A DNA stretch of 55,694 bases from Aquificaceae bacterium. GTDB taxonomy: Bacteria; Aquificota; Aquificia; Aquificales; Aquificaceae. The notes under the pieces were generated by a model, which had not been told where the DNA came from, did not search any database, and was given only the letters and a program-made list of their open reading frames with translations. Of the stretch, positions 19,854-28,213 are shown in pieces (the first letter of the stretch is position 1; each line of letters starts with the position of its first letter). The position numbers were made by a program, and so were the translations under genes. The stretch spans positions 1-55,694 of the forward strand of contig WFYI01000025.1 in the NCBI GenBank assembly GCA_015490155.1. Reading direction: 5' to 3'.

Positions 19854-20135
19854 ATGGTAAAGAAGGAGGATATAGTAGCGAGGAGCGTTGAGATAGAGGT
19901 CATAGGAGACATAGAGCGGTGTCACGAGGGTGAGTACTCCAAGTTTTACTGCATAAGGGCAAAGATAAAGTTTGACAACGGAGAGGAGAGAGAGTTCCTC
20001 ATGAGGTCTCACGAAAGTCCCAAAAGCTTGGAGAACTTTATACAGAACAAGAAGGGCATTAAGGAGAAAACGGAAAAGTCCTACGTGCTGCTCAAGAACG
20101 GTGAAATCATGTACGTGTATGACTTAGAGTTTTGA
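19854..20135 (+). CDS. Uncharacterised 93-aa protein heading the sulfur-transfer operon
   Basis: I do not recognise this protein. It is small and soluble, with alternating strands (SVEIEVIGDIERC, FYCIRAKIKFDNGEEREFL) and a helix (SPKSLENFIQNKKGIKEK), ending in a strand with a tyrosine (IMYVYDLEF). Cysteines at ERCHEG and FYCIR might take part in sulfur handling, which would fit its position 17 bases before tusA. The ATG at 19854 is preceded by TATATT ten bases upstream and no ribosome site, so it may be the first gene of a transcript with a very short leader. The reverse-strand reading through the same bases is less convincing. Confidence 0.6.
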   Translation: MVKKEDIVARSVEIEVIGDIERCHEGEYSKFYCIRAKIKFDNGEEREFLMRSHESPKSLENFIQNKKGIKEKTEKSYVLLKNGEIMYVYDLEF

Positions 20136-20152
20136 ATTATATTAATGTAGTT

Positions 20153-20401
20153 ATGCAGGAGGAAAAGCTTAAGATAGACAAAGAGCTTGACATAAGGGGC
20201 GAAATTTGCCCATTCACCTTTGTAAAGAGCAAACTCGTTTTAGAACACATGGAAAAAGGGGAAGTTCTGAGGGTGATAGTTGATTACCAACCCTCGGCGG
20301 AGAGCGTCCCCAAAAGCATGAGAGAAGAAGGACAAGAGGTCATAGCGGTAAACGAGATAGGTGACAACACTTGGGAGATAATCCTCCGTAAAGCCAGATG
20401 A
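20153..20401 (+). CDS. tusA: TusA-family sulfur carrier protein
   Basis: An 82-aa TusA/SirA-like protein. The CPxP-type motif appears as GEICPFTFVKSKL, with Cys19 as the persulfide-carrying residue; the second proline is Thr here. VIVDYQPSAESVPKSM replaces the usual VxxxDP-A-xxDIP element. In sulfur-oxidising Aquificales TusA, with DsrE-type proteins, moves sulfane sulfur toward the Hdr-like oxidation complex; in other bacteria it serves tRNA thiolation or cofactor synthesis. I prefer the ATG at 20153 to a TTG at 20132, because the N-terminal part would otherwise carry seven extra residues and TATATT lies nine bases before 20153. Its stop overlaps the DsrE-like gene by four bases. Confidence 0.88.
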   Translation: MQEEKLKIDKELDIRGEICPFTFVKSKLVLEHMEKGEVLRVIVDYQPSAESVPKSMREEGQEVIAVNEIGDNTWEIILRKAR

Positions 20402-20700
20402 GGGTCTTAATCGTAATAACCAGCGTTCCCTTTGCAAAGGACTTCAACACGATAAGCAACCTGATAAGGACTTTCAACACATCGGGCGACGAGGTAAGCG
20501 TATTCTTAGCAGGAAACGGCGCCTACTACCTTCTCAGACCGGAAGTAAAGGAGCTTTCCCAACTTGCGAGATTCCTCTTCTGTTCTCATTCCGCACACGA
20601 AAGGGGCGTGGAAACAGTACCGAGCTGGGCGGAAAGCAGTTCCACCTACAACCTTTCTAAGATGCTTCCGGAGTTTGATAAGGTAATAGTGTTTAATTAA
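20398..20700 (+). CDS. DsrE/TusD-like sulfurtransferase
   Basis: A 100-aa alpha/beta protein of the DsrE family. RVLIVITSVPFAKDFNT is the first strand and loop, DEVSVFLAGNGAYYLL the second, and Cys62 in FCSHSAHERGV stands where DsrE/TusD have the sulfur-accepting cysteine. The set TusA, DsrE-like, DsrF-like, DsrH-like in one row is the typical sulfur-relay cluster; the hexameric DsrEFH of phototrophs receives sulfur from TusA. The gene overlaps tusA by four bases and is followed after five bases by the DsrF-like gene. Whether the relay feeds energy metabolism or tRNA modification is not decidable here; an Aquificales host makes sulfur oxidation likely. Confidence 0.82.
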   Translation: MRVLIVITSVPFAKDFNTISNLIRTFNTSGDEVSVFLAGNGAYYLLRPEVKELSQLARFLFCSHSAHERGVETVPSWAESSSTYNLSKMLPEFDKVIVFN

Positions 20701-20705
20701 CTGCT

Positions 20706-21047
20706 ATGAGGGTAGCTTTCGTAATAAAGGGAGACCCATTTTCTTGGAAGGCTCACGAAGCTCTTAGGCAAGCTATAGCTGTGGGTATGAACCACGAGCT
20801 TGACCTAATCCTCGTAAGGGACGGCGTTTACACGCTGGCAGACTGGAAACAGGAGGAACTCGGCATAAACACCTTTGATAAGTTTTTAGAGACCTTTGAG
20901 TACGTGAACATAAGGGTTATAGTTGAAGATGCCTCTGTGCAGGAAAGGGGGCTGAAGGAAAAAGACTTTACCACAGAGGTTGAAGTCCGCTCTGCCGAGG
21001 AAATTTCCGACATAATAAACTCTGCGGAGGCGGTTTTCGTATGGTGA
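20706..21047 (+). CDS. DsrF/TusC-like protein
   Basis: A 113-aa DsrE/F-like fold. RVAFVIKGDPFSWKAHEALRQ and VGMNHELDLILVRDGVYTL match the TusC/DsrF pattern (first strand, helix, then a strand ending in DGVY-L). It has no cysteine at all, so, like DsrF in known DsrEFH complexes, it would be structural and not a carrier. It is longer than the DsrH-like neighbour because of an insertion around GINTFDKFLETFEYVN. Its last codons overlap the next start by seven bases. Confidence 0.78.
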   Translation: MRVAFVIKGDPFSWKAHEALRQAIAVGMNHELDLILVRDGVYTLADWKQEELGINTFDKFLETFEYVNIRVIVEDASVQERGLKEKDFTTEVEVRSAEEISDIINSAEAVFVW

Positions 21048-21280
21048 ATACGCTCTGGCTCGTAAGGAAACTCGGAGATTTTTCCTCCGAGCTGCTATCG
21101 GACGACGATGCGGTTATCCTCATACAGGACGGAGTTCTGCGATGGCCCACACGCAAGGGCTGGTACGTTTGCAAAGAGGATGCCGAAGCAAGAGGCATAA
21201 AGGTTCCGGAAGATATAAAAAAGAGTTACGAAGAGATAGTAAACATGATAAAGGAAGCCAAGAGGGTGGTTGTCTGGTAA
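21041..21280 (+). CDS. DsrH/TusB-like protein
   Basis: A 79-aa protein that fits DsrH/TusB: NTLWLVRKLGDF at the start, DDAVILIQDGVLRW in the centre (compare the family's GDAVLLIEDGVYA), then WYVCKEDAEARGIKVPED and a C-terminal WP/VW ending. DsrH carries one cysteine in some species; the only one here is in YVCKED. It overlaps the DsrF-like gene by seven bases and stops three bases before the receiver gene of the exopolysaccharide cluster, so the sulfur relay and that cluster are probably on one message. Confidence 0.75.
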   Translation: MVNTLWLVRKLGDFSSELLSDDDAVILIQDGVLRWPTRKGWYVCKEDAEARGIKVPEDIKKSYEEIVNMIKEAKRVVVW

Positions 21281-21283
21281 GAT

Positions 21284-21640
21284 ATGAAAATACTAATAGT
21301 TGACGATGAGATGGCTATAGGTAAAGTGCTGGATACCGTATTTTCCAACAAGGGATATGAAACCAAGTGGATAAGCAGTGCGGAGAACATATCCAAGGAG
21401 GTGGAGGAATTTAAGCCGGACTTAGTACTTTTGGACGTGAACATGCCCGGAAAGTCCGGTTTTGAAGCGCTGAGGGAGATAAGACAGAACTCGAACATAC
21501 CGGTTATAATGATTACAGTTCTCTCTCAGGAGTTTAACATAGACAAAGCCTACGAGCTGGGAGCGGTGGATTACGTGGTTAAGCCCTTCAGTATTCAACA
21601 TCTGGTAAGGAAGGTAGAGGCGGTTCTCGGTGATAAGTAA
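21284..21640 (+). CDS. Stand-alone response-regulator receiver (CheY-like)
   Basis: A 118-aa single-domain receiver with no output domain. The acidic pair D7-D8, the phosphoacceptor D51 in LVLLDVNMPGKSGF, the Thr of MITVLS and the Lys of VVKPF are all present, so it should be phosphorylated. It is the first gene of the exopolysaccharide-type cluster and overlaps the next gene by 11 bases. The last gene of the same cluster is a histidine kinase without a sensor domain; the two probably form the cluster's own phosphorelay, acting by protein-protein contact and not by DNA binding. Target candidates are the membrane HEAT-repeat protein or the glycosyltransferase. Confidence 0.9.
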   Translation: MKILIVDDEMAIGKVLDTVFSNKGYETKWISSAENISKEVEEFKPDLVLLDVNMPGKSGFEALREIRQNSNIPVIMITVLSQEFNIDKAYELGAVDYVVKPFSIQHLVRKVEAVLGDK

Positions 21641-23204
21641 AGTACCGGTCTTACTTTTAGCTCTACCGATTATTGCCTTTTCACTTACGCCGGGCAAAGA
21701 CTATTACTGCGTTCAGCTGGCAAGCTCAAAGAATCCTGAGAGACTCATGAAGTTGGTAAGGCACGCAAGCTCTTATCCGAACCTGAGGATAGAACGGATA
21801 AACGGCACCTATACACTCAGAGCCGGGTTTTTTGAAAAGGTAAAAGACTCAAAGAACTTAGAGAGAGTAGTAAGAAGTGCCTTTAAAGATGCCTTTACGA
21901 GAGTATGTTCTTACAAGCCCGAGAGGGTAGTATTCCCGAAGAAGAAGTCACCAGCTTTAGAAAAACCGGAAAGGAGAACCTACACCTACGAAGTGGGTAT
22001 GAAACTATCCCGCCTGTACTTAAAGAAAAAGGATTTTAAGAAAGCTGAAGAGCTTTACAGAGACCTTTTAAAGGTTCACCCCAACAACAGGGAAATAAAG
22101 CTAATGCTGGCAAGGGTTCTATACTGGCAGAAGAAGTACGACGAGGCTTTAGAGCTTTACCGTGAGCTTGAAAGGGAAGATAACAGGCTCGCCAACGAGA
22201 GGAGAAAGGTTGAGATAAGCAGGATACTGAGTATCGCGGACAGGTTAGAGAAAGAAGGTAAAATAGAAGAGGCTATAAAAGTTCTTGAGAGACTTTACAA
22301 GGAGGAAAGGGGAAACTACAGCGTGGGTTTGAAGTTGGGAAAGCTATACATAAAGAGGGGTTTAAGGAACAGGGCGCATGAGGTTTTCGGAGAGCTCGTT
22401 TTGAAATATCCGAAGGATAAAGACATAAAATACCTTTACAGGATTACCTCTCCAAGAGAGGTGGTAAAAAAAAAGAGCGTATCAGAAAGGAGGGAGAAAG
22501 CTATAAGCTCACAGAAAAAGGAACTGCTTAATTATGCAAGGCTTGGAGCAAGGTACTTCTGGTACTCCAACAGGGACTTTGAAGACAAAGAGCTGTATCT
22601 AAACTTTAAGCTGAAAAACCTACTACCCGGTTCCTTGATAGGCACAGTTAGGGTTGTAAACAGGTTCAGAAAGGAGAATAAACAGCTCGGGCTTGAGTAT
22701 TACAGAAAGCTATTCCCCAAGTGGTGGGGTTACCTGTCTTCAGATTTTTCTCCCGAGGCGGACTTCTTAGCCAAGTACTCCTTTGGTGGGGGTGTGTTCA
22801 GGTCTATGAAGAGCTTAGAGGTAGGGGGGAACGTAAGGTACATGAGATTTAAGAACTCCGAGGTACTTCTTTTAATTCCCTCTGTATTCATGTACCTACC
22901 GTTGAACATGTCAAACCAAACCTCCCTTTACATAAATCCCAAGAGGGGAACTTACACGCTCTTAAATAAGCTCTATTACACGGGAGAGAAGTTAGAAAGC
23001 TTTGTATCACTTTCCATGGGAACCTCATCGGAGAGACTCGAAGCTAGGGAGGACTTTCTAAGGTACTCTACCCTGTCAATATCCGCCGGGTTTGAGTACG
23101 ACCTGAGCAAAAGGTTTTCGCTGGGGGGCTCCTTTAAGTTTGAGAATAGGAAAGAGCTTTACAAAAGATATGGGATAGAAGGTTATGCCAGGTTTAGGTG
23201 GTGA
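21630..23204 (+). CDS. Outer-membrane exporter-like protein: SPOR-like + TPR + YaiO-type beta-barrel
   Basis: A 524-aa exported protein. Residues 1-18 are a signal peptide. Residues 24-90 resemble a SPOR-type domain (YYCVQLASSKNPERLMKLV and later GTYTLRAGFFEK). Residues 118-270 hold four TPR units, for example KKDFKKAEELYRDLLKVHP and QKKYDEALELYRELERE. From about 300 to the end alternating hydrophobic strands end in a terminal aromatic residue (YARFRW), as in outer-membrane barrels of the YaiO family. A TPR-plus-barrel layout is that of polysaccharide exporters such as PgaA. With the glycosyltransferase two genes downstream this is likely the outer-membrane exit of a polymer. It overlaps both neighbours (11 and 20 bases). 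Confidence 0.75.
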   Translation: MISKVPVLLLALPIIAFSLTPGKDYYCVQLASSKNPERLMKLVRHASSYPNLRIERINGTYTLRAGFFEKVKDSKNLERVVRSAFKDAFTRVCSYKPERVVFPKKKSPALEKPERRTYTYEVGMKLSRLYLKKKDFKKAEELYRDLLKVHPNNREIKLMLARVLYWQKKYDEALELYRELEREDNRLANERRKVEISRILSIADRLEKEGKIEEAIKVLERLYKEERGNYSVGLKLGKLYIKRGLRNRAHEVFGELVLKYPKDKDIKYLYRITSPREVVKKKSVSERREKAISSQKKELLNYARLGARYFWYSNRDFEDKELYLNFKLKNLLPGSLIGTVRVVNRFRKENKQLGLEYYRKLFPKWWGYLSSDFSPEADFLAKYSFGGGVFRSMKSLEVGGNVRYMRFKNSEVLLLIPSVFMYLPLNMSNQTSLYINPKRGTYTLLNKLYYTGEKLESFVSLSMGTSSERLEAREDFLRYSTLSISAGFEYDLSKRFSLGGSFKFENRKELYKRYGIEGYARFRW

Positions 23205-24330
23205 GCTTCCCGAGCTTCTCGATAAGATACAGTTTATTCCCCCTCCGGTACTAAAAGAGATACTAATAAAGCTTATTCTCACCCTCTTTCTAATAAACGT
23301 AGTTCTATTTGCCATCACGGTAGGACAACGGCTGTGGGTTGATTACAGGGATAGAAGGTACAGAAAAGCCTACGAGAAATACACCGAGCAGGTCTCTCAG
23401 GCTCTATTCACCGAAGGTAAAGTAGACAAACCGAAAACGAGGATAGAGATGGAAGCGCTGGGCGATGTGTGCATAGAGATAAGGAGGAAGTTCAAAGGCA
23501 TGGTAGAGGAGAGAATACTTGAGATTGCCGAGGATACGGGTGTGATTAGGTATTACAAAAAGCAGACGAAGAGCTTTCTAATTCAAACGAAGATAACCGC
23601 TTACGAAAAACTCAGCTACCTGGGAGTAACATCTGTTAAGCCCTCCCTTAAGGAGGAAATCAAGAAAGAGGATAAGGATTGGGTTGTGGGAAAGCTGTGT
23701 TTTGCTTACGTAAACCTCTCGGAGACTGTCGAGGACGTCGGATTTGTGTTTAGCAGGTTATCCGAGTTTAAAACTATAAGCCTGAAGTTCATAGAGTTTC
23801 TATGGTTCGAAACCATAAAGAAGTTTAACGAAAGGGGAGAGCTGTCTAACCTAATAGATTTTGTGAGAGACAGATTTTACCTGAGGTACTATCAAGCGGA
23901 CACGCTGAGAGCGTTTATAGAAGCACTGGGAAACTTCGGAGCCGTAGAAGGCACAGATTTCATTCTCGAGGTTTACGAGGAAAAGGGGGAGGACATTCTG
24001 ATTAGACTAAGCTGTATAAGGTCTTTGGGTAACATGGGTTATAGTGATTTTTGCAGGATTTTTATTGAGAATGTGAGCCATAAGGACTGGAGAGTGAGGG
24101 CGGTGGTGTTCAAGTTTTCCTATCTGTGTGAGAGAGAGGTGGTTATGGATTACCTTGAGAAGGGGTTAGGAGACGAAAACTACTACGTTAGGATGAACGC
24201 CGGAAGGGCGTTCCTGTTCTTCGGAGATAATGCAAAACCTGTACTTGAGAAACTTTTGAATTCGGAAGACACCTTCACAAGAGATACAGTTACTTACCTG
24301 CTCGAGGAACTGGAGGCTAAGAATGCTTAA
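23185..24330 (+). CDS. Membrane-anchored HEAT-repeat protein of the exopolysaccharide cluster
   Basis: A 381-aa protein with one strong transmembrane helix at about residues 28-48 (ILIKLILTLFLINVVLFAIT) after a short Pro-rich start, and a large cytoplasmic part. From about 215 onward alpha-helical repeats of HEAT type are seen, such as YYQADTLRAFIEALGNFG, ILIRLSCIRSLGNMG, DWRVRAVVFKFSYL and NYYVRMNAGRAFLFFGD. HEAT repeats usually bind proteins. Lying between the export barrel and the processive glycosyltransferase with overlaps of 20 and 8 bases, it probably organises the synthase or receives a signal from the cluster's receiver. I do not know a characterised homologue. Confidence 0.7.
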   Translation: MPGLGGELPELLDKIQFIPPPVLKEILIKLILTLFLINVVLFAITVGQRLWVDYRDRRYRKAYEKYTEQVSQALFTEGKVDKPKTRIEMEALGDVCIEIRRKFKGMVEERILEIAEDTGVIRYYKKQTKSFLIQTKITAYEKLSYLGVTSVKPSLKEEIKKEDKDWVVGKLCFAYVNLSETVEDVGFVFSRLSEFKTISLKFIEFLWFETIKKFNERGELSNLIDFVRDRFYLRYYQADTLRAFIEALGNFGAVEGTDFILEVYEEKGEDILIRLSCIRSLGNMGYSDFCRIFIENVSHKDWRVRAVVFKFSYLCEREVVMDYLEKGLGDENYYVRMNAGRAFLFFGDNAKPVLEKLLNSEDTFTRDTVTYLLEELEAKNA

Positions 24331-25747
24331 AGCCTTGGCTTACTTCCTTCTGGGATTTCAACTATTCATACTTATTTACTTCTTCATAGTTAACGCGATA
24401 TACACGATGTTCATCGCTGTAGCTGTTTTTCACATATTCAGGTTCATGATTTTGATACGCAGGGAGAGGCTTGAGCTTATGCTTTCCAACGTTCTCTACA
24501 GACCCATATCTATACTCGTCCCCGCTTACAACGAGGAAGAGACCATAGTTTCGAGTCTTAAATCCCTGCTTAATCTTCACTACCCTGAGTTCGAGGTGGT
24601 TGTTATAAACGATGGCTCAACGGATAACACCATGGAAGTACTAAAAAAAGAGCTTAAGCTCGTAAGAATAGACAAACCTGTAAGAAAGGTAATAGAGCAT
24701 AAACCGGTGAAGGACATATACATATCTCTTGACTTCCCCAACTTAATAGTAGTCGATAAGGAAAACGGAGGAAAGGCCGATGCCCTTAACTGCGGTATAA
24801 ACGTATGTAATTATCCCCTTTTCTGTTGCATAGATGCGGATTCCATCTTAGAGGAGGAAGCACTACTAAGGGCTTCACGGTTATTCGTAGAGGATAAACT
24901 CGTGATAGCCACCGGAGGAACTGTAAGGGTTCTCAATAACAGCGTTGTTAAGGGTGGTAGAGTGGTTGAGATAAAAGCTCCCAAGAAGTGGGTGGAGATA
25001 TTTCAAGTCATAGAGTACACGAGAGGATTCTTGAGCGGGAGAACGGCATGGAATATATTCAACAGCTTACTCATAATATCCGGAGCTTTTGGTATCTTTC
25101 GTAAAGATGCGGTCATGATGGTAGGAGGTTACAGGCACACCGTAGGCGAGGACATGGATTTGGTAGTCAGGCTCCATAGGCACTTTATAGAGGAAAAGAT
25201 ACCTTACAAGATACTGTTCGTGCCTGACCCTATATGTTGGACACAGGTTCCTTCGGACTTAAAGTCCCTTCTGAAGCAGAGGAACAGGTGGCATAGAGGG
25301 CTTATAGATAGCCTTTGGTTCAGCAAGAAAATGTTTTTCAATCCGAGGTACGGCTGGGTGGGTATGCTGGGATACCCTTACTTCGTCTTTGTTGAGGCAC
25401 TGGGACCCATGGTTGAGTTTCTGGGTTACCTCGGAGTGGTTCTCTTTTACCTATTCGGAATGCTCAACAGGGAGTTCGCTCTTTTATTCTTCTTACTTGC
25501 CTTTCTCTGGGGGATTTTAATAAGTGTAGGCTCTATCCTTATAGACAACCTCATGTACAGAAGATATGGACACTTTAAAGATATACTTAAGCTGTGTGTC
25601 TTTAGTATAATTGAGGCTTTCGGCTACAGACAGCTGATAGTTATGGAGCGCTTTGTAGCCCTATTCCAGTTCTGGTATCGAGCATGGGGAAAACCCAAAA
25701 GGAAAAGGATAGAGGGAAGAGAAGTTGAAAAAACTTCTTCTGCTTAG
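24323..25747 (+). CDS. Processive family-2 glycosyltransferase (PgaC/BcsA-like)
   Basis: A 474-aa membrane glycosyltransferase. Two N-terminal transmembrane segments (to about residue 45) precede the GT-A domain. ISILVPAYNEEETI starts the nucleotide-binding fold, VVINDGSTDNT carries the first aspartate, the DxD is in CIDADS, the acceptor-base motif is VGEDMD and the processive signature is QRNRW in LLKQRNRWHRG. At least three more membrane segments follow, with an amphipathic interface part. All catalytic residues are there, so it should polymerise a beta-linked sugar polymer at the inner membrane. YMR..GHF..-type ends recall PgaC, but no PgaB-type deacetylase is nearby. It overlaps the HEAT gene by 8 and the pseudophosphatase gene by 23 bases. 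Confidence 0.9.
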   Translation: MLKALAYFLLGFQLFILIYFFIVNAIYTMFIAVAVFHIFRFMILIRRERLELMLSNVLYRPISILVPAYNEEETIVSSLKSLLNLHYPEFEVVVINDGSTDNTMEVLKKELKLVRIDKPVRKVIEHKPVKDIYISLDFPNLIVVDKENGGKADALNCGINVCNYPLFCCIDADSILEEEALLRASRLFVEDKLVIATGGTVRVLNNSVVKGGRVVEIKAPKKWVEIFQVIEYTRGFLSGRTAWNIFNSLLIISGAFGIFRKDAVMMVGGYRHTVGEDMDLVVRLHRHFIEEKIPYKILFVPDPICWTQVPSDLKSLLKQRNRWHRGLIDSLWFSKKMFFNPRYGWVGMLGYPYFVFVEALGPMVEFLGYLGVVLFYLFGMLNREFALLFFLLAFLWGILISVGSILIDNLMYRRYGHFKDILKLCVFSIIEAFGYRQLIVMERFVALFQFWYRAWGKPKRKRIEGREVEKTSSA

Positions 25748-26225
25748 CTACGAATGGAGCCTCAGGTTAACCTTTGCCATAGTTATCTTGTTATCCGCTT
25801 CCGCTTTCTTACTTATATTGGTAGATTTCCCCAAGATGGACAGAGAACTGACTCTCCTCAGCCACTTAAAACAGAAGCCTAAGAAGGTAGCAAGAGGGCT
25901 GTGGATAGGTGGGTACCACTTCTCTGATAAGGAGTTCTTGAAATTTCTAAGGAAAAAAAGGATAGGTGTAGTTATATCCCTGCTCGACCCGGACATGGCA
26001 CACGAGAAGGAGCTTCTTCTTCAGGAGCGCCGTTTGTTGTCCTCAAGGGGAATCATACTTCAAAACGTTCCCATAAAGCCATTTATCAAAGATGAGAAGA
26101 AAATAGAAACCGCGCGTCGCTTAATAAAAACGTGGCGTAGAAGGGGTGTAAACGTTTATATTCATAGTTATCTCGGTAGGGTGAGGGTGGGCTACTTAAT
26201 GGAGGAAGTTAGGTATGGCGGGTAA
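25725..26225 (+). CDS. Membrane-anchored pseudophosphatase (DSP-like, catalytic Cys replaced by Ser)
   Basis: A 166-aa protein with an N-terminal transmembrane helix (FAIVILLSASAFLLILV near 17-33) and a small dual-specificity-phosphatase-like domain facing the periplasm or cytosol (topology not certain). The P-loop reads HSYLGRVR, so the HCX5R catalytic cysteine is Ser148 while Arg154 is kept. GLWIGGYHFSDKEF and IGVVISLLDPD are the strand-loop parts shared with the next gene. A Cys-to-Ser change is the classic substrate-trapping mutation of PTPs, so this protein could bind phosphorylated ligand without hydrolysing it. It overlaps its neighbours by 23 and 11 bases. It is a tandem paralogue of the next protein. 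Confidence 0.72.
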   Translation: MKKLLLLSYEWSLRLTFAIVILLSASAFLLILVDFPKMDRELTLLSHLKQKPKKVARGLWIGGYHFSDKEFLKFLRKKRIGVVISLLDPDMAHEKELLLQERRLLSSRGIILQNVPIKPFIKDEKKIETARRLIKTWRRRGVNVYIHSYLGRVRVGYLMEEVRYGG

Positions 26226-26694
26226 GATAGTTCGCGGAATATTCGTACTCGTATTTCTGGGCTATCTGCTCAGCATGGGTTCCGTTTACTTCAGCTACAT
26301 AGAGCCTTACATATTTCCTCTCAAGCTTATTCAGGGGGAAGCGAGACACGTTACGGAGAACGTGATAGCGGGTCCCTATCCCCACGAGAAAGACATAGAG
26401 AGGCTTTACAAGGTCAGCGGTGTAAAGGTCATTATCTCGCTGCTAAACCCATCTCTTCCCTTTGAAAAGAGCTTGCTTGAGAAAGAGAAAGAAATAACAG
26501 AAAAGTATGGACTGGAGTTCTACAATATCCCCATATCCTTTATCAACCTCAACAGCCCCGAGAACGTAAAGAATGTTTCCAAGGTATTGGATATAATTAA
26601 GAAGCATAAGGGAGATAAGATTTACGTTCACTGCTACTTGGGCAGGCACAGGGTGGAACTCGTCGTAAATAGGTTGATTGGGGCTGACTACTGA
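26215..26694 (+). CDS. Membrane-anchored dual-specificity-type phosphatase (HCX5R intact)
   Basis: A 159-aa paralogue of the preceding protein, with a transmembrane helix near residues 7-27 and an intact phosphatase loop HCYLGRHR (Cys140, Arg146). VIAGPYPHEKDIERL and VKVIISLLNPSLPFE correspond to GGYHFSDKEF and VVISLLDPDM in the pseudoenzyme. Small DSP-like enzymes of this kind act on phosphotyrosine, phosphoinositides or lipid pyrophosphates; the substrate is unknown. In a polysaccharide cluster a lipid-linked or tyrosine-phosphorylated target would make sense. Its TGA shares its A with the ATG of the next gene. Confidence 0.75.
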   Translation: MAGKIVRGIFVLVFLGYLLSMGSVYFSYIEPYIFPLKLIQGEARHVTENVIAGPYPHEKDIERLYKVSGVKVIISLLNPSLPFEKSLLEKEKEITEKYGLEFYNIPISFINLNSPENVKNVSKVLDIIKKHKGDKIYVHCYLGRHRVELVVNRLIGADY

Positions 26695-27638
26695 TGAAGT
26701 ATCTGTCAAGCGCATTTCTCACGTTAATTATTCTGAATGTATTAGCTTACGGTGAAGCGAAGCTTGAGGGTATAAACTTCATAAAAATAACTCAAGTGGA
26801 GGATAGGCTGAGCATATCCTATTACAAGGACAATCCCTTAAGGGAAGAGGGAAAAGCTGTATCCCCGGTGGATAGGTCTCCCGTATGCGGTGAGGGTAAA
26901 TCCCACTGGGCTTTATGGGTCTGGAATGCCAGAAAGCTGGAAAACAGATGGGAGGCGTTCTTACGAACCGTGAAGGACTGGGACATAGACAGGGTATATC
27001 TGCAGGTTAACGAAGCCCTTGAGCAAAGCCTATTGGACAGGATTAAGGCTCTGGGTCTCGAGGTGTTCTTGCTTGACGGTTCAAGAACTTACAGCCTAAA
27101 TTTTCCTCCCGAATTTCTCGGTAAGTTTGAGGTGGACGGTGTTCAGGTTGATATAGAGCCTTATCTGATGCCGGACTTCAATGTTAAAAAGGAGTACTAC
27201 CTGAGAGAGTACCTTAGGGTACTTAACGAGCTAAAACCAGCTATAAGGGGGAAAAGGTTGTCGGTGGTAATACCTTTCTGGTTTGACAAGCTCAAGCTGG
27301 GTGAAAAACCCATGCTCGAGTATATATTTGAAGTAGCGGACGAAGTGGTAATCATGGCTTATAGAGACAACTTTGAGGAGGCTTTGAACCTGTCTAAGGA
27401 AGAGATAGCCATGGGTGGCACCTACGGAAAACCTGTATTTATAGGTTTTGAGCTTCACAAACAAAAGGATGAGATTCACAGAGTTTACAGGGTGGATAGA
27501 AATGGGCTTGTTCATATCGGAACTTACAAGGTAAGAGGTAGCAAGCTAAGTATATCTAAAGAGAAGCTTAAAAGCGTGAGAAATGTGGAGTGTAAAGGGG
27601 TCTCAGGGTTCGTTATTCACAGTTTTGGAGCTATGTGA
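26694..27638 (+). CDS. Secreted TIM-barrel-like protein with DIEP motif (possible glycoside hydrolase)
   Basis: A 314-aa exported protein. Residues 1-21 form a signal peptide. The domain starts with HWALWVWNARKLENRWEAF, runs through alternating strands and helices (DIDRVYLQVNEALEQ, GLEVFLLDGS), and has VQVDIEPYLMPDF at 151-163 and VVIMAYRDNFEEAL near 225. An acidic pair at the end of a strand (D153, E155) followed by Pro is what glycoside-hydrolase-type barrels often use, so a polysaccharide-cleaving or -binding role in the cluster is plausible, but I know no named family with certainty. A lipoprotein at 52176-53081 shows the same order of motifs. The gene overlaps both neighbours by one base. 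Confidence 0.65.
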   Translation: MKYLSSAFLTLIILNVLAYGEAKLEGINFIKITQVEDRLSISYYKDNPLREEGKAVSPVDRSPVCGEGKSHWALWVWNARKLENRWEAFLRTVKDWDIDRVYLQVNEALEQSLLDRIKALGLEVFLLDGSRTYSLNFPPEFLGKFEVDGVQVDIEPYLMPDFNVKKEYYLREYLRVLNELKPAIRGKRLSVVIPFWFDKLKLGEKPMLEYIFEVADEVVIMAYRDNFEEALNLSKEEIAMGGTYGKPVFIGFELHKQKDEIHRVYRVDRNGLVHIGTYKVRGSKLSISKEKLKSVRNVECKGVSGFVIHSFGAM

Positions 27639-28213
27639 TGGATATGAAAACGGTTCTTATACACGAGCTTGCTAACAAGGTGTCTGCTCTGAAAAGTGTA
27701 TCGGAGCTGAATATAGAGTGTATAGACAGAAGCCTCGCCGAACTTATAGACAGCATAGACCTTATAGCTAAGTACATTCTGGATTTGGAAACCCTAAACC
27801 TTCACGAGAACATGAAGGAGGAAAAGCTGAAGCTGGGTAGGGTAATCGAGGACGTTATATCTGAGCTTAATATAATTGCAAACCTCAAATCTGTCAGCTT
27901 TGAGGTGTCCGGGTGCGAAGGGCTGGAAGTTCTATCTAAGGAGTTTATACTTAGAAGAAGTCTCTATAACATACTACACAACGCTGTTAAGTTCTCTCCG
28001 AAGGGAGAGAAGATAGGTATAAGATGTGCAGCTGAGGAGGGAAAAGCGGTCATAAACGTTGAGAACTCCGTGGACGAGGAAAGCCTTAAGAAAAGCAAAG
28101 GCTCAGGAATAGGCATGACTATAACCAGAAAGCTCACCGAGGTTATAAATGCCGAGATAAGACAGAACAGCAACGGCAGTAAAGTTACCACCGAGATAAT
28201 TCTAAAATTCTGA
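27638..28213 (+). CDS. Sensorless histidine kinase
   Basis: A 191-aa cytoplasmic kinase with no input domain. The phospho-accepting His is already at residue 9 (LIHELANKVSAL, compare HELRTPL), followed by the dimerisation helices and a HATPase domain: N-box LYNILHNAVKFSP, a worn G1 region VENSVDEESL in place of DNGPGI, and the G2 box KGSGIGMTI. ATP binding is therefore likely but not certain. It is the last gene of the exopolysaccharide cluster, which begins with a lone receiver. I choose the ATG at 27638, overlapping the previous stop by one base, with GGAG seven bases upstream. Confidence 0.82.
   Translation: MDMKTVLIHELANKVSALKSVSELNIECIDRSLAELIDSIDLIAKYILDLETLNLHENMKEEKLKLGRVIEDVISELNIIANLKSVSFEVSGCEGLEVLSKEFILRRSLYNILHNAVKFSPKGEKIGIRCAAEEGKAVINVENSVDEESLKKSKGSGIGMTITRKLTEVINAEIRQNSNGSKVTTEIILKF

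Follow-up and report, generated by a model that had tools for sequence, protein, structure and literature searches.

Among bacterial polysaccharide synthases, the ones studied most closely are under the control of cyclic di-GMP (c-di-GMP), and those of the PgaCD type answer to it without a PilZ domain. Production of two proteins from one gene at a homopolymer is known from dnaX: slippage at nine A's in Thermus thermophilus dnaX makes about half of the product short (PMC5009743, PMC1088944), dnaX genes laid out as two open reading frames (ORFs) have been described, and Escherichia coli dnaX uses −1 ribosomal frameshifting (both PMC3711429). Here we describe a block of eight genes (21284–28213, plus strand) in a 55,694-nucleotide stretch of DNA from an Aquificaceae bacterium (contig WFYI01000025.1, assembly GCA_015490155.1; hereafter the window), a hot-water organism with a genome of 1.59 Mb. 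The best explanation of the locus as a whole, which we consider likely, is a synthase-dependent exopolysaccharide machine that is controlled by a receiver and a HEAT-repeat protein and whose exporter gene carries a slippage site of nine A's (A9).

Like PgaABCD and IcaABCD, the locus combines a PgaC-type GT2 synthase (PgaC being its best NCBIfam match), an exporter built of TPRs and an outer-membrane barrel, and an exported TIM-barrel protein. It differs in its receiver and HEAT adaptor, in the lack of a PgaB-type deacetylase domain among the eight proteins searched against Pfam and NCBIfam, and in its scores: the synthase reached 142 bits against the PgaC/IcaA model TIGR03937 (cut-off 422.3) and the exporter 30 bits against the PgaA model TIGR03939 (cut-off 366.65). 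With scores so far under both cut-offs, it is no Pga system. An earlier account based on the letters of the DNA (the sequence-only reading) had likened the system to Pga; what stands of this is an exopolysaccharide-type machine. With the BcsABC(Z) cellulose system the locus shares a GT2, a TPR–barrel exporter and, putatively, a periplasmic glycoside hydrolase, but it has a HEAT adaptor, its hydrolase is GH18-like and not GH8, and the PilZ and BcsB that mark a Bcs synthase were, like PgaB, absent from the same search, as the sequence-only reading had said. E. coli YaiO/YaiP likewise places a YaiO-family barrel next to a GT2; to our knowledge, YaiO there does not belong to any receiver–HEAT module.

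In the mechanism that we propose, the GT2 would polymerise a sugar, probably an N-acetylhexosamine, across the inner membrane. The lone receiver, once phosphorylated, would bind the cytoplasmic HEAT domain of the membrane adaptor and switch the synthase on or off, with its input coming from other kinases or from the small HATPase protein, whether that is a kinase or a phosphotransferase. Periplasmic SPOR and TPR domains together with the YaiO barrel would export the polymer, a periplasmic GH18-like hydrolase would trim or clear it, and a phosphatase/pseudophosphatase pair would probably act in the periplasm, its target being a glycan, lipid or protein that carries phosphate. With slippage at A9, a single exporter gene would supply a periplasmic TPR-only protein as well as the full TPR–barrel channel, the in-frame product being the channel in the window and the TPR-only protein in eight relatives. 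On balance we also think that A9 sets the ratio of free SPOR–TPR protein to TPR–barrel protein, that it serves dnaX and a lipoate-ligase fusion as well, forming a small clade-wide recoding set, and that receiver–HEAT–GT2 is the phosphorelay-controlled counterpart, in bacteria and haloarchaea, of the c-di-GMP-controlled synthases. If this is true, the triad, found from Aquificota to haloarchaea, would be a general second mode of synthase control, and A9 would be a programmed slippage site setting the stoichiometry of an envelope machine. Automatic annotation would then break an exporter gene of this kind into two entries, a TPR protein and a barrel fragment that lacks a start.

The A9 tract of the exporter gene

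The most surprising element of the locus is the putative recoding site A9, of which the sequence-only reading made no mention. The exporter gene (21630..23204, plus strand, GTG start) encodes 524 amino acids (aa): a signal peptide, a SPOR-like domain at aa 24-88 (21.8 bits, cut-off 21.0), TPRs at about aa 120-280 (TPR_19, 74 bits), a linker with A9, and a YaiO outer-membrane barrel at about aa 301-524 that scores well above both family cut-offs (PF19413, 56 bits against 23.9; TIGR04390, 83.8 bits against 32). The predicted slippage site, GT-AAAAAAAAA (GT-A9), lies at 22464..22474 on the plus strand between the TPR and barrel domains; an interrupted form of the tract, suited as a control, would read AAGAAAAAG. 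All other Aquificaceae genomes have what looks like an exporter gene split in two, and the break always falls at GT followed by exactly nine A's. GT-A9 is identical in 9/9 Aquificaceae homologues and is always followed by C or G; these homologues represent about seven separate lineages, and their TPR parts are mostly 42–61% identical. The flanks of A9 cannot be aligned among the nine genomes, and the tract stands in two different codon phases. Selection on the protein cannot account for an exact tract kept in two phases between diverged flanks, whereas selection on the nucleic acid can.

The barrel of the eight relatives is encoded in the −1 frame with respect to the TPR part; read without a shift, these genes give only a TPR protein of about 280–290 aa. 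One added A (A10) gave fusions of 499–513 aa in the four relatives for which this was computed. Seven of the eight barrel ORFs lack a start codon ahead of the first conserved barrel segment (L007 has one GTG inside it). A signal peptide was found on none of the eight separate barrel ORFs and, since usable start and signal peptide are both missing, the barrel could not be exported alone. The ratio of nonsynonymous to synonymous substitution rates is about 0.1 for TPR and barrel alike, so that the two halves are under purifying selection to the same degree. The window gene reads straight into the long product, and its A8, A10 and A11 versions were computed to give TPR-only proteins of 291–300 aa.

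A9 is the only A/T homopolymer of at least eight in the window, and GTA9[C/G] is found once in the organism's genome, at this site; three relatives that have no such gene lack it. Pattern searches gave about 2–13 distinct A9 runs per genome, and chance would put an A9 in a 120-base linker about once per several thousand genomes. The sequence marks of a programmed slippage gene, namely a conserved homopolymer of at least eight, a frame change and a conserved downstream ORF, are found together in the eight relatives, with the window gene in frame. These features indicate that A9 is probably a programmed slippage site giving TPR-only and TPR–barrel proteins from one gene. A search of titles and abstracts in the open-access literature (most subscription papers fell outside its scope) returned nothing relevant that joins slippage to exopolysaccharide.

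Homopolymers inside surface-exporter genes may also act as phase-variation switches, as in many surface-polysaccharide genes, and replication slippage could toggle the barrel in sub-populations, with the window 'on' and the eight relatives 'off'. We consider this very unlikely. The number of A's is constant between genomes, which makes phase variation less likely, and the frame differences stem from the surrounding sequence and not from tract length. Moreover, all eight 'off' genes need the same −1 shift, their barrel is under strong purifying selection, and the clade's dnaX, a gene that is presumably essential, is built in the same way.

This apparent further use of A9 emerged from inspection of other A9 runs, the gene names being given by eye. 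Five Aquificaceae genomes have A9 near the 3′ end of dnaX (G000:C31:19656-19664 at L119, and L114, L116, L121 and L128); the 0-frame ends in ..LF and the −1 frame leads to a conserved alternative tail, YDE(A/S)VLKxxELFxAK. A lipoate-protein-ligase/DUF116-like gene carries A9 where its domains meet; the window's genome has this gene in frame (G000:C40:13518-13526, L123), genome G044 with a −1 frame (G044:C242:5784-5792, L109). The same clade appears to use the A9 device in at least three genes. The exporter gene resembles Thermus thermophilus dnaX in its nine A's, in its two (here predicted) products per gene and in having stops close by in the other frames. Its layout in the window is that of Thermus, with the long product in frame, and the eight relatives have that of the two-ORF dnaX genes (PMC3711429). 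In contrast to dnaX, the gene encodes an outer-membrane exporter, its products would differ by a whole membrane channel, and slippage is predicted from sequence.

Slippage by RNA polymerase is favoured over ribosomal frameshifting because no consistent structure was found downstream of A9 (z −1.8 to +1.0 in seven sequences). A −1 ribosomal shift at A_AAA_AAA/G would fit the eight two-frame genes, which all need exactly −1; heptamers of the A_AAA_AAR type occur in both codon phases, and E. coli dnaX offers a precedent (PMC3711429). However, exactly nine A's are kept though seven make a heptamer, and nine is the length of the RNA-polymerase hybrid, with T. thermophilus dnaX as precedent (PMC5009743, PMC1088944). 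Taken with the lack of a consistent structure, these points lead us to regard ribosomal frameshifting as unlikely and to retain slippage by RNA polymerase as the probable mechanism.

The receiver–HEAT–GT2 core and its control

The first gene of the block (21284..21640, plus strand) encodes a lone receiver (REC) of 118 aa (PF00072, 102 bits). Its pocket comprises the phospho-acceptor Asp in LLDV (21428-21439), the acid pair VDDE and the Lys in VVKPF, and the same pocket is present in homologues from Elusimicrobiota, Deinococcota, Pseudomonadota and haloarchaea. The HEAT-repeat membrane protein (23185..24330, plus strand; 381 aa; PF13646, 42 bits) has one N-terminal transmembrane segment (TM) at about aa 28-46. 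Positive-inside counts are 2 versus 6, with the same sense in other phyla, and by this rule the C-terminal HEAT domain is predicted to face the cytoplasm; we propose that the protein is the receiver-to-synthase adaptor. The synthase (24323..25747, plus strand; 474 aa; PF13641, 83 bits; PF00535, 87 bits) has the motifs DGSTDNT, DADS (24833-24844), GED (25145-25153) and QRNRW (25277-25291). Residues D97, D171/D173 and D277 and the QRxRW motif are invariant in 17 homologues and, with the hydrophobic TM segments, mark it as a processive GT2.

A protein search with the GT2 gave relatives in Aquificaceae, Elusimicrobiota, one Desulfosporosinus and Deinococcales, with their neighbours in the same order. 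Plasmid records added homologues from bacteria (Paenibacillus, Planococcus, Deinococcus radiophilus, Mesorhizobium, Erythrobacter, Legionella, Emticicia and Bacteroides) and haloarchaea (Halosolutus and Salinirubellus). When whole genomes were searched with strict thresholds, the GT2 was present in 38/111 Deinococcota, 27/248 Elusimicrobiota and 8/136 Aquificota genomes, and nine Aquificota genomes had strong matches to the HEAT protein. In 49/49 loci, drawn from Aquificota, Elusimicrobiota, Deinococcota, Bacillota, Pseudomonadota, Bacteroidota and haloarchaea, the gene immediately upstream of the GT2 encodes a membrane protein with HEAT repeats, and in 36/49 a receiver lies before or near the HEAT gene, as counted with a refined HEAT profile retrained on sequences upstream of GT2, the independent table being the first-pass one. 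That other phyla have these genes in a matching order far exceeds what chance would give; the prospect, raised in the sequence-only reading, that these genes might occur together only here does not hold. The YaiO/TPR genes are found mainly in diderms, so we take receiver–HEAT–GT2 as the core, with an exporter added where an outer membrane exists. The open-access literature searched (most subscription papers again outside its scope) gave no description of the HEAT/YaiO/GT2/receiver combination.

The sequence-only reading had taken the absence of PilZ to suggest that control is not by c-di-GMP. We rejected this argument because PgaCD-type synthases need no PilZ to respond and because GGDEF proteins are many in this genome (16 matches), with some PilZ proteins beside them (5 matches). 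Receiver control is the more general reading since the triad occurs in haloarchaea too. The last gene of the block (27635..28213, plus strand, GTG start) encodes a soluble HATPase_c protein of 192 aa (34 bits), formerly called a sensorless histidine kinase. A four-sequence alignment located its His in HELANK (27662-27679), the N-box (27968-28000) and the G2 box (28100-28114). The G1 motif DxGxG is absent, with Asn instead, leaving the H, N, G1 and G2 set of histidine kinases incomplete. The protein is thus better described as a kinase or phosphotransferase, and from these motifs it may be a phosphotransferase rather than a kinase. Its gene was found in 8/9 Aquificaceae genomes carrying the system.

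Several loci differ from the common arrangement. A more distant HEAT–GT2 pair in another Aquificaceae genus (L082, G032:C1:93000-109500) has its own TPR–barrel gene downstream and neither receiver nor phosphatases. In Bacilli and Deinococcus a large exported protein, hydrolase-like by eye, is encoded upstream of HEAT–GT2 (L037:2767-5868, L038:3250-5676, L043:3694-5763); it is possibly the local counterpart of the hydrolase, and a Pfam search with the L037 protein gave no match. The Planococcus locus (L043:813-3669) has HEAT–GT2 together with polyphosphate-polymerase, DUF4956 and CotH-kinase genes. Apparent HEAT–GT2 fusions, an 850-aa ORF in L083 and further long ORFs in L086, L090 and L095, were rejected because the stretch upstream is an out-of-frame translation rich in Arg, Pro and Gly.

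The GH18-like protein and the phosphatase pair

The seventh gene (26694..27638, plus strand) encodes an exported protein of 314 aa with the motifs DGVQVDIEP (27135-27161) and MAYRD (27354-27368). The sequence-only reading had called it a secreted DIEP-motif barrel; export and DIEP motif are confirmed, and the barrel is predicted to be a GH18-like TIM barrel, not an outer-membrane barrel. Alone, the protein had no match in Pfam or NCBIfam. A profile built on it matched 10yv, a solved 'putative GH97', at 2.6e-15. AlphaFold predicted a TIM barrel (mean predicted local distance difference test, pLDDT, 88), and most of the top Foldseek matches were GH18 proteins (SleL, chitinases) with a TM score of only about 0.4. 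Compared with the GH18 signature DxxDxDxE, DGVQVDIE keeps the last D and the E, together with the MxY motif; Q/N replaces the first D of DxDxE. The homologue of L015 scored 20.9 bits against the GH18 Pfam model (cut-off 29.6), and the homologues of L015 and L080 have a lipobox. In one haloarchaeal locus of the receiver–HEAT–GT2 type the neighbours include glmS and the gene of a sugar nucleotidyltransferase, and N-acetylhexosaminides are the substrates of GH18 enzymes. The GH18-like fold and these haloarchaeal neighbours hint at an amino-sugar polymer, which we infer is probably of the N-acetylhexosamine type.

The pair of membrane-anchored phosphatase-type proteins, which like the DIEP protein recurs in Elusimicrobiota, consists of a pseudophosphatase (25725..26225, plus strand, TTG start) whose HSYLGRVR (26163-26186) has Ser for the catalytic Cys, and an atypical dual-specificity-type phosphatase (26215..26694, plus strand) with HCYLGRHR (26629-26652). 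The Ser is kept in Aquificaceae L015, L030, L032 and L080, and HCX5R in 5/5 Aquificaceae active-type sequences and in Elusimicrobiota. The phosphatase model (pLDDT 86) gave atypical dual-specificity phosphatases as best Foldseek matches (DUF442, SIW14 and a plant glucan phosphatase); with its HCX5R P-loop, the predicted fold would place 26215–26694 among the Cys-dependent enzymes of this class. In Elusimicrobiota the two are one tandem protein with an intact first domain (HCYLGKDR), a dead second domain and about three N-terminal TMs. At L029:7098-9617 the GT2 and tandem phosphatase read cleanly through as one 839-aa ORF, a possible natural fusion on a single draft contig that was left out of the evidence. 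From charge counts, the pair probably faces the periplasm. The TpbA-type periplasmic dual-specificity phosphatases are likewise exported HCX5R enzymes linked to exopolysaccharide; the arrangement here differs in being a membrane-anchored pair with a conserved Ser-for-Cys partner and in having no cyclase in the cluster.

The pair allows another product to be considered, a phosphate-decorated glycan (phosphoglycerol or similar) that the phosphatases would edit. Elusimicrobiota neighbours include DgkA (PF01219, 116 bits) and 'Sulfatase'-fold proteins (124 and 140 bits), a lipoteichoic acid synthase adjoins the system in Emticicia, and the phosphatase model lies near glucan phosphatases. However, no such transferase or DgkA is among the eight Aquificaceae genes, and the Foldseek TM score of about 0.6 is alike for glucan, inositol and protein phosphatases, so that the fold does not fix the substrate. 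We view this product as rather unlikely.

The sequence-only reading had the receiver/kinase and the phosphatase pair jointly gate synthesis through the HEAT protein, with the phosphatases on the same cytoplasmic circuit. All eight genes do overlap tightly and, in Aquificaceae, the phosphatase strictly co-occurs with the system: its gene is in 9/9 genomes with the system (both copies in eight) and 0/3 without, and in G059 and G051 it is present though on another contig than the system. However, the HEAT repeats are predicted to be cytoplasmic and the phosphatase domains lean periplasmic. Aquificaceae and one Elusimicrobiota clade were the only groups in which the pair turned up, and Deinococcota, Bacillota, Pseudomonadota and haloarchaea have receiver–HEAT–GT2 loci that lack it; the pair is therefore an accessory and not the gate. 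Enzymes of the protein tyrosine phosphatase type are also not known to hydrolyse phospho-Asp or phospho-His as a normal activity. Joint gating is thus improbable, and what we keep of the proposal is its receiver and HEAT core. In the GT2 tree the Aquificaceae are sister to the phosphatase-bearing Elusimicrobiota clade (100/99), which together with the Aquificaceae co-occurrence shows the pair to be a real accessory of one sub-lineage.

Some observations weigh against a receiver–HEAT-controlled machine with a slipping exporter gene. The exporter ORF of the window is intact, and slippage there would only strip the barrel from part of the product. The receiver is not universal, being missing beside homologues in Bacteroides, Legionella, Planococcus and several Elusimicrobiota, and none of the homologous loci yielded a genuine fusion of receiver with HEAT or of HEAT with GT2. 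The periplasmic lean of the phosphatase domains depends on weak charge counts and is clearest in Elusimicrobiota. Finally, the relatives are mostly fragmented draft genomes, several of them labelled as metagenome-assembled.

Limits of the block and neighbouring genes

Recomputed ORFs bore out the eight overlapping genes of the sequence-only reading, with its coordinates and its overlaps of 1-23 bases (11, 20, 8, 23, 11, 1 and 4 bases in order). Its receiver, TPR plus YaiO-like, HEAT, GT2, Ser-for-Cys and HCX5R assignments likewise stood up to profile and motif checks. Calling the system self-contained was an overstatement, since the block sits inside a longer same-strand run: small sulfur-relay-type genes stop 3 bases before it and lepA begins 22 bases after it. 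With flanking genes this close, the limits of the block are set by conservation and not by gaps.

The sulfur-relay-type genes (TusA-like and DsrE-like, 19854-21280) are possibly co-transcribed with the receiver gene in the window; the flanks differ in relatives. Among Elusimicrobiota, DgkA lies beside the system in L017, L021, L024, L025, L028 and L033, and LtaS/MdoB-like enzymes are present in some of these loci.

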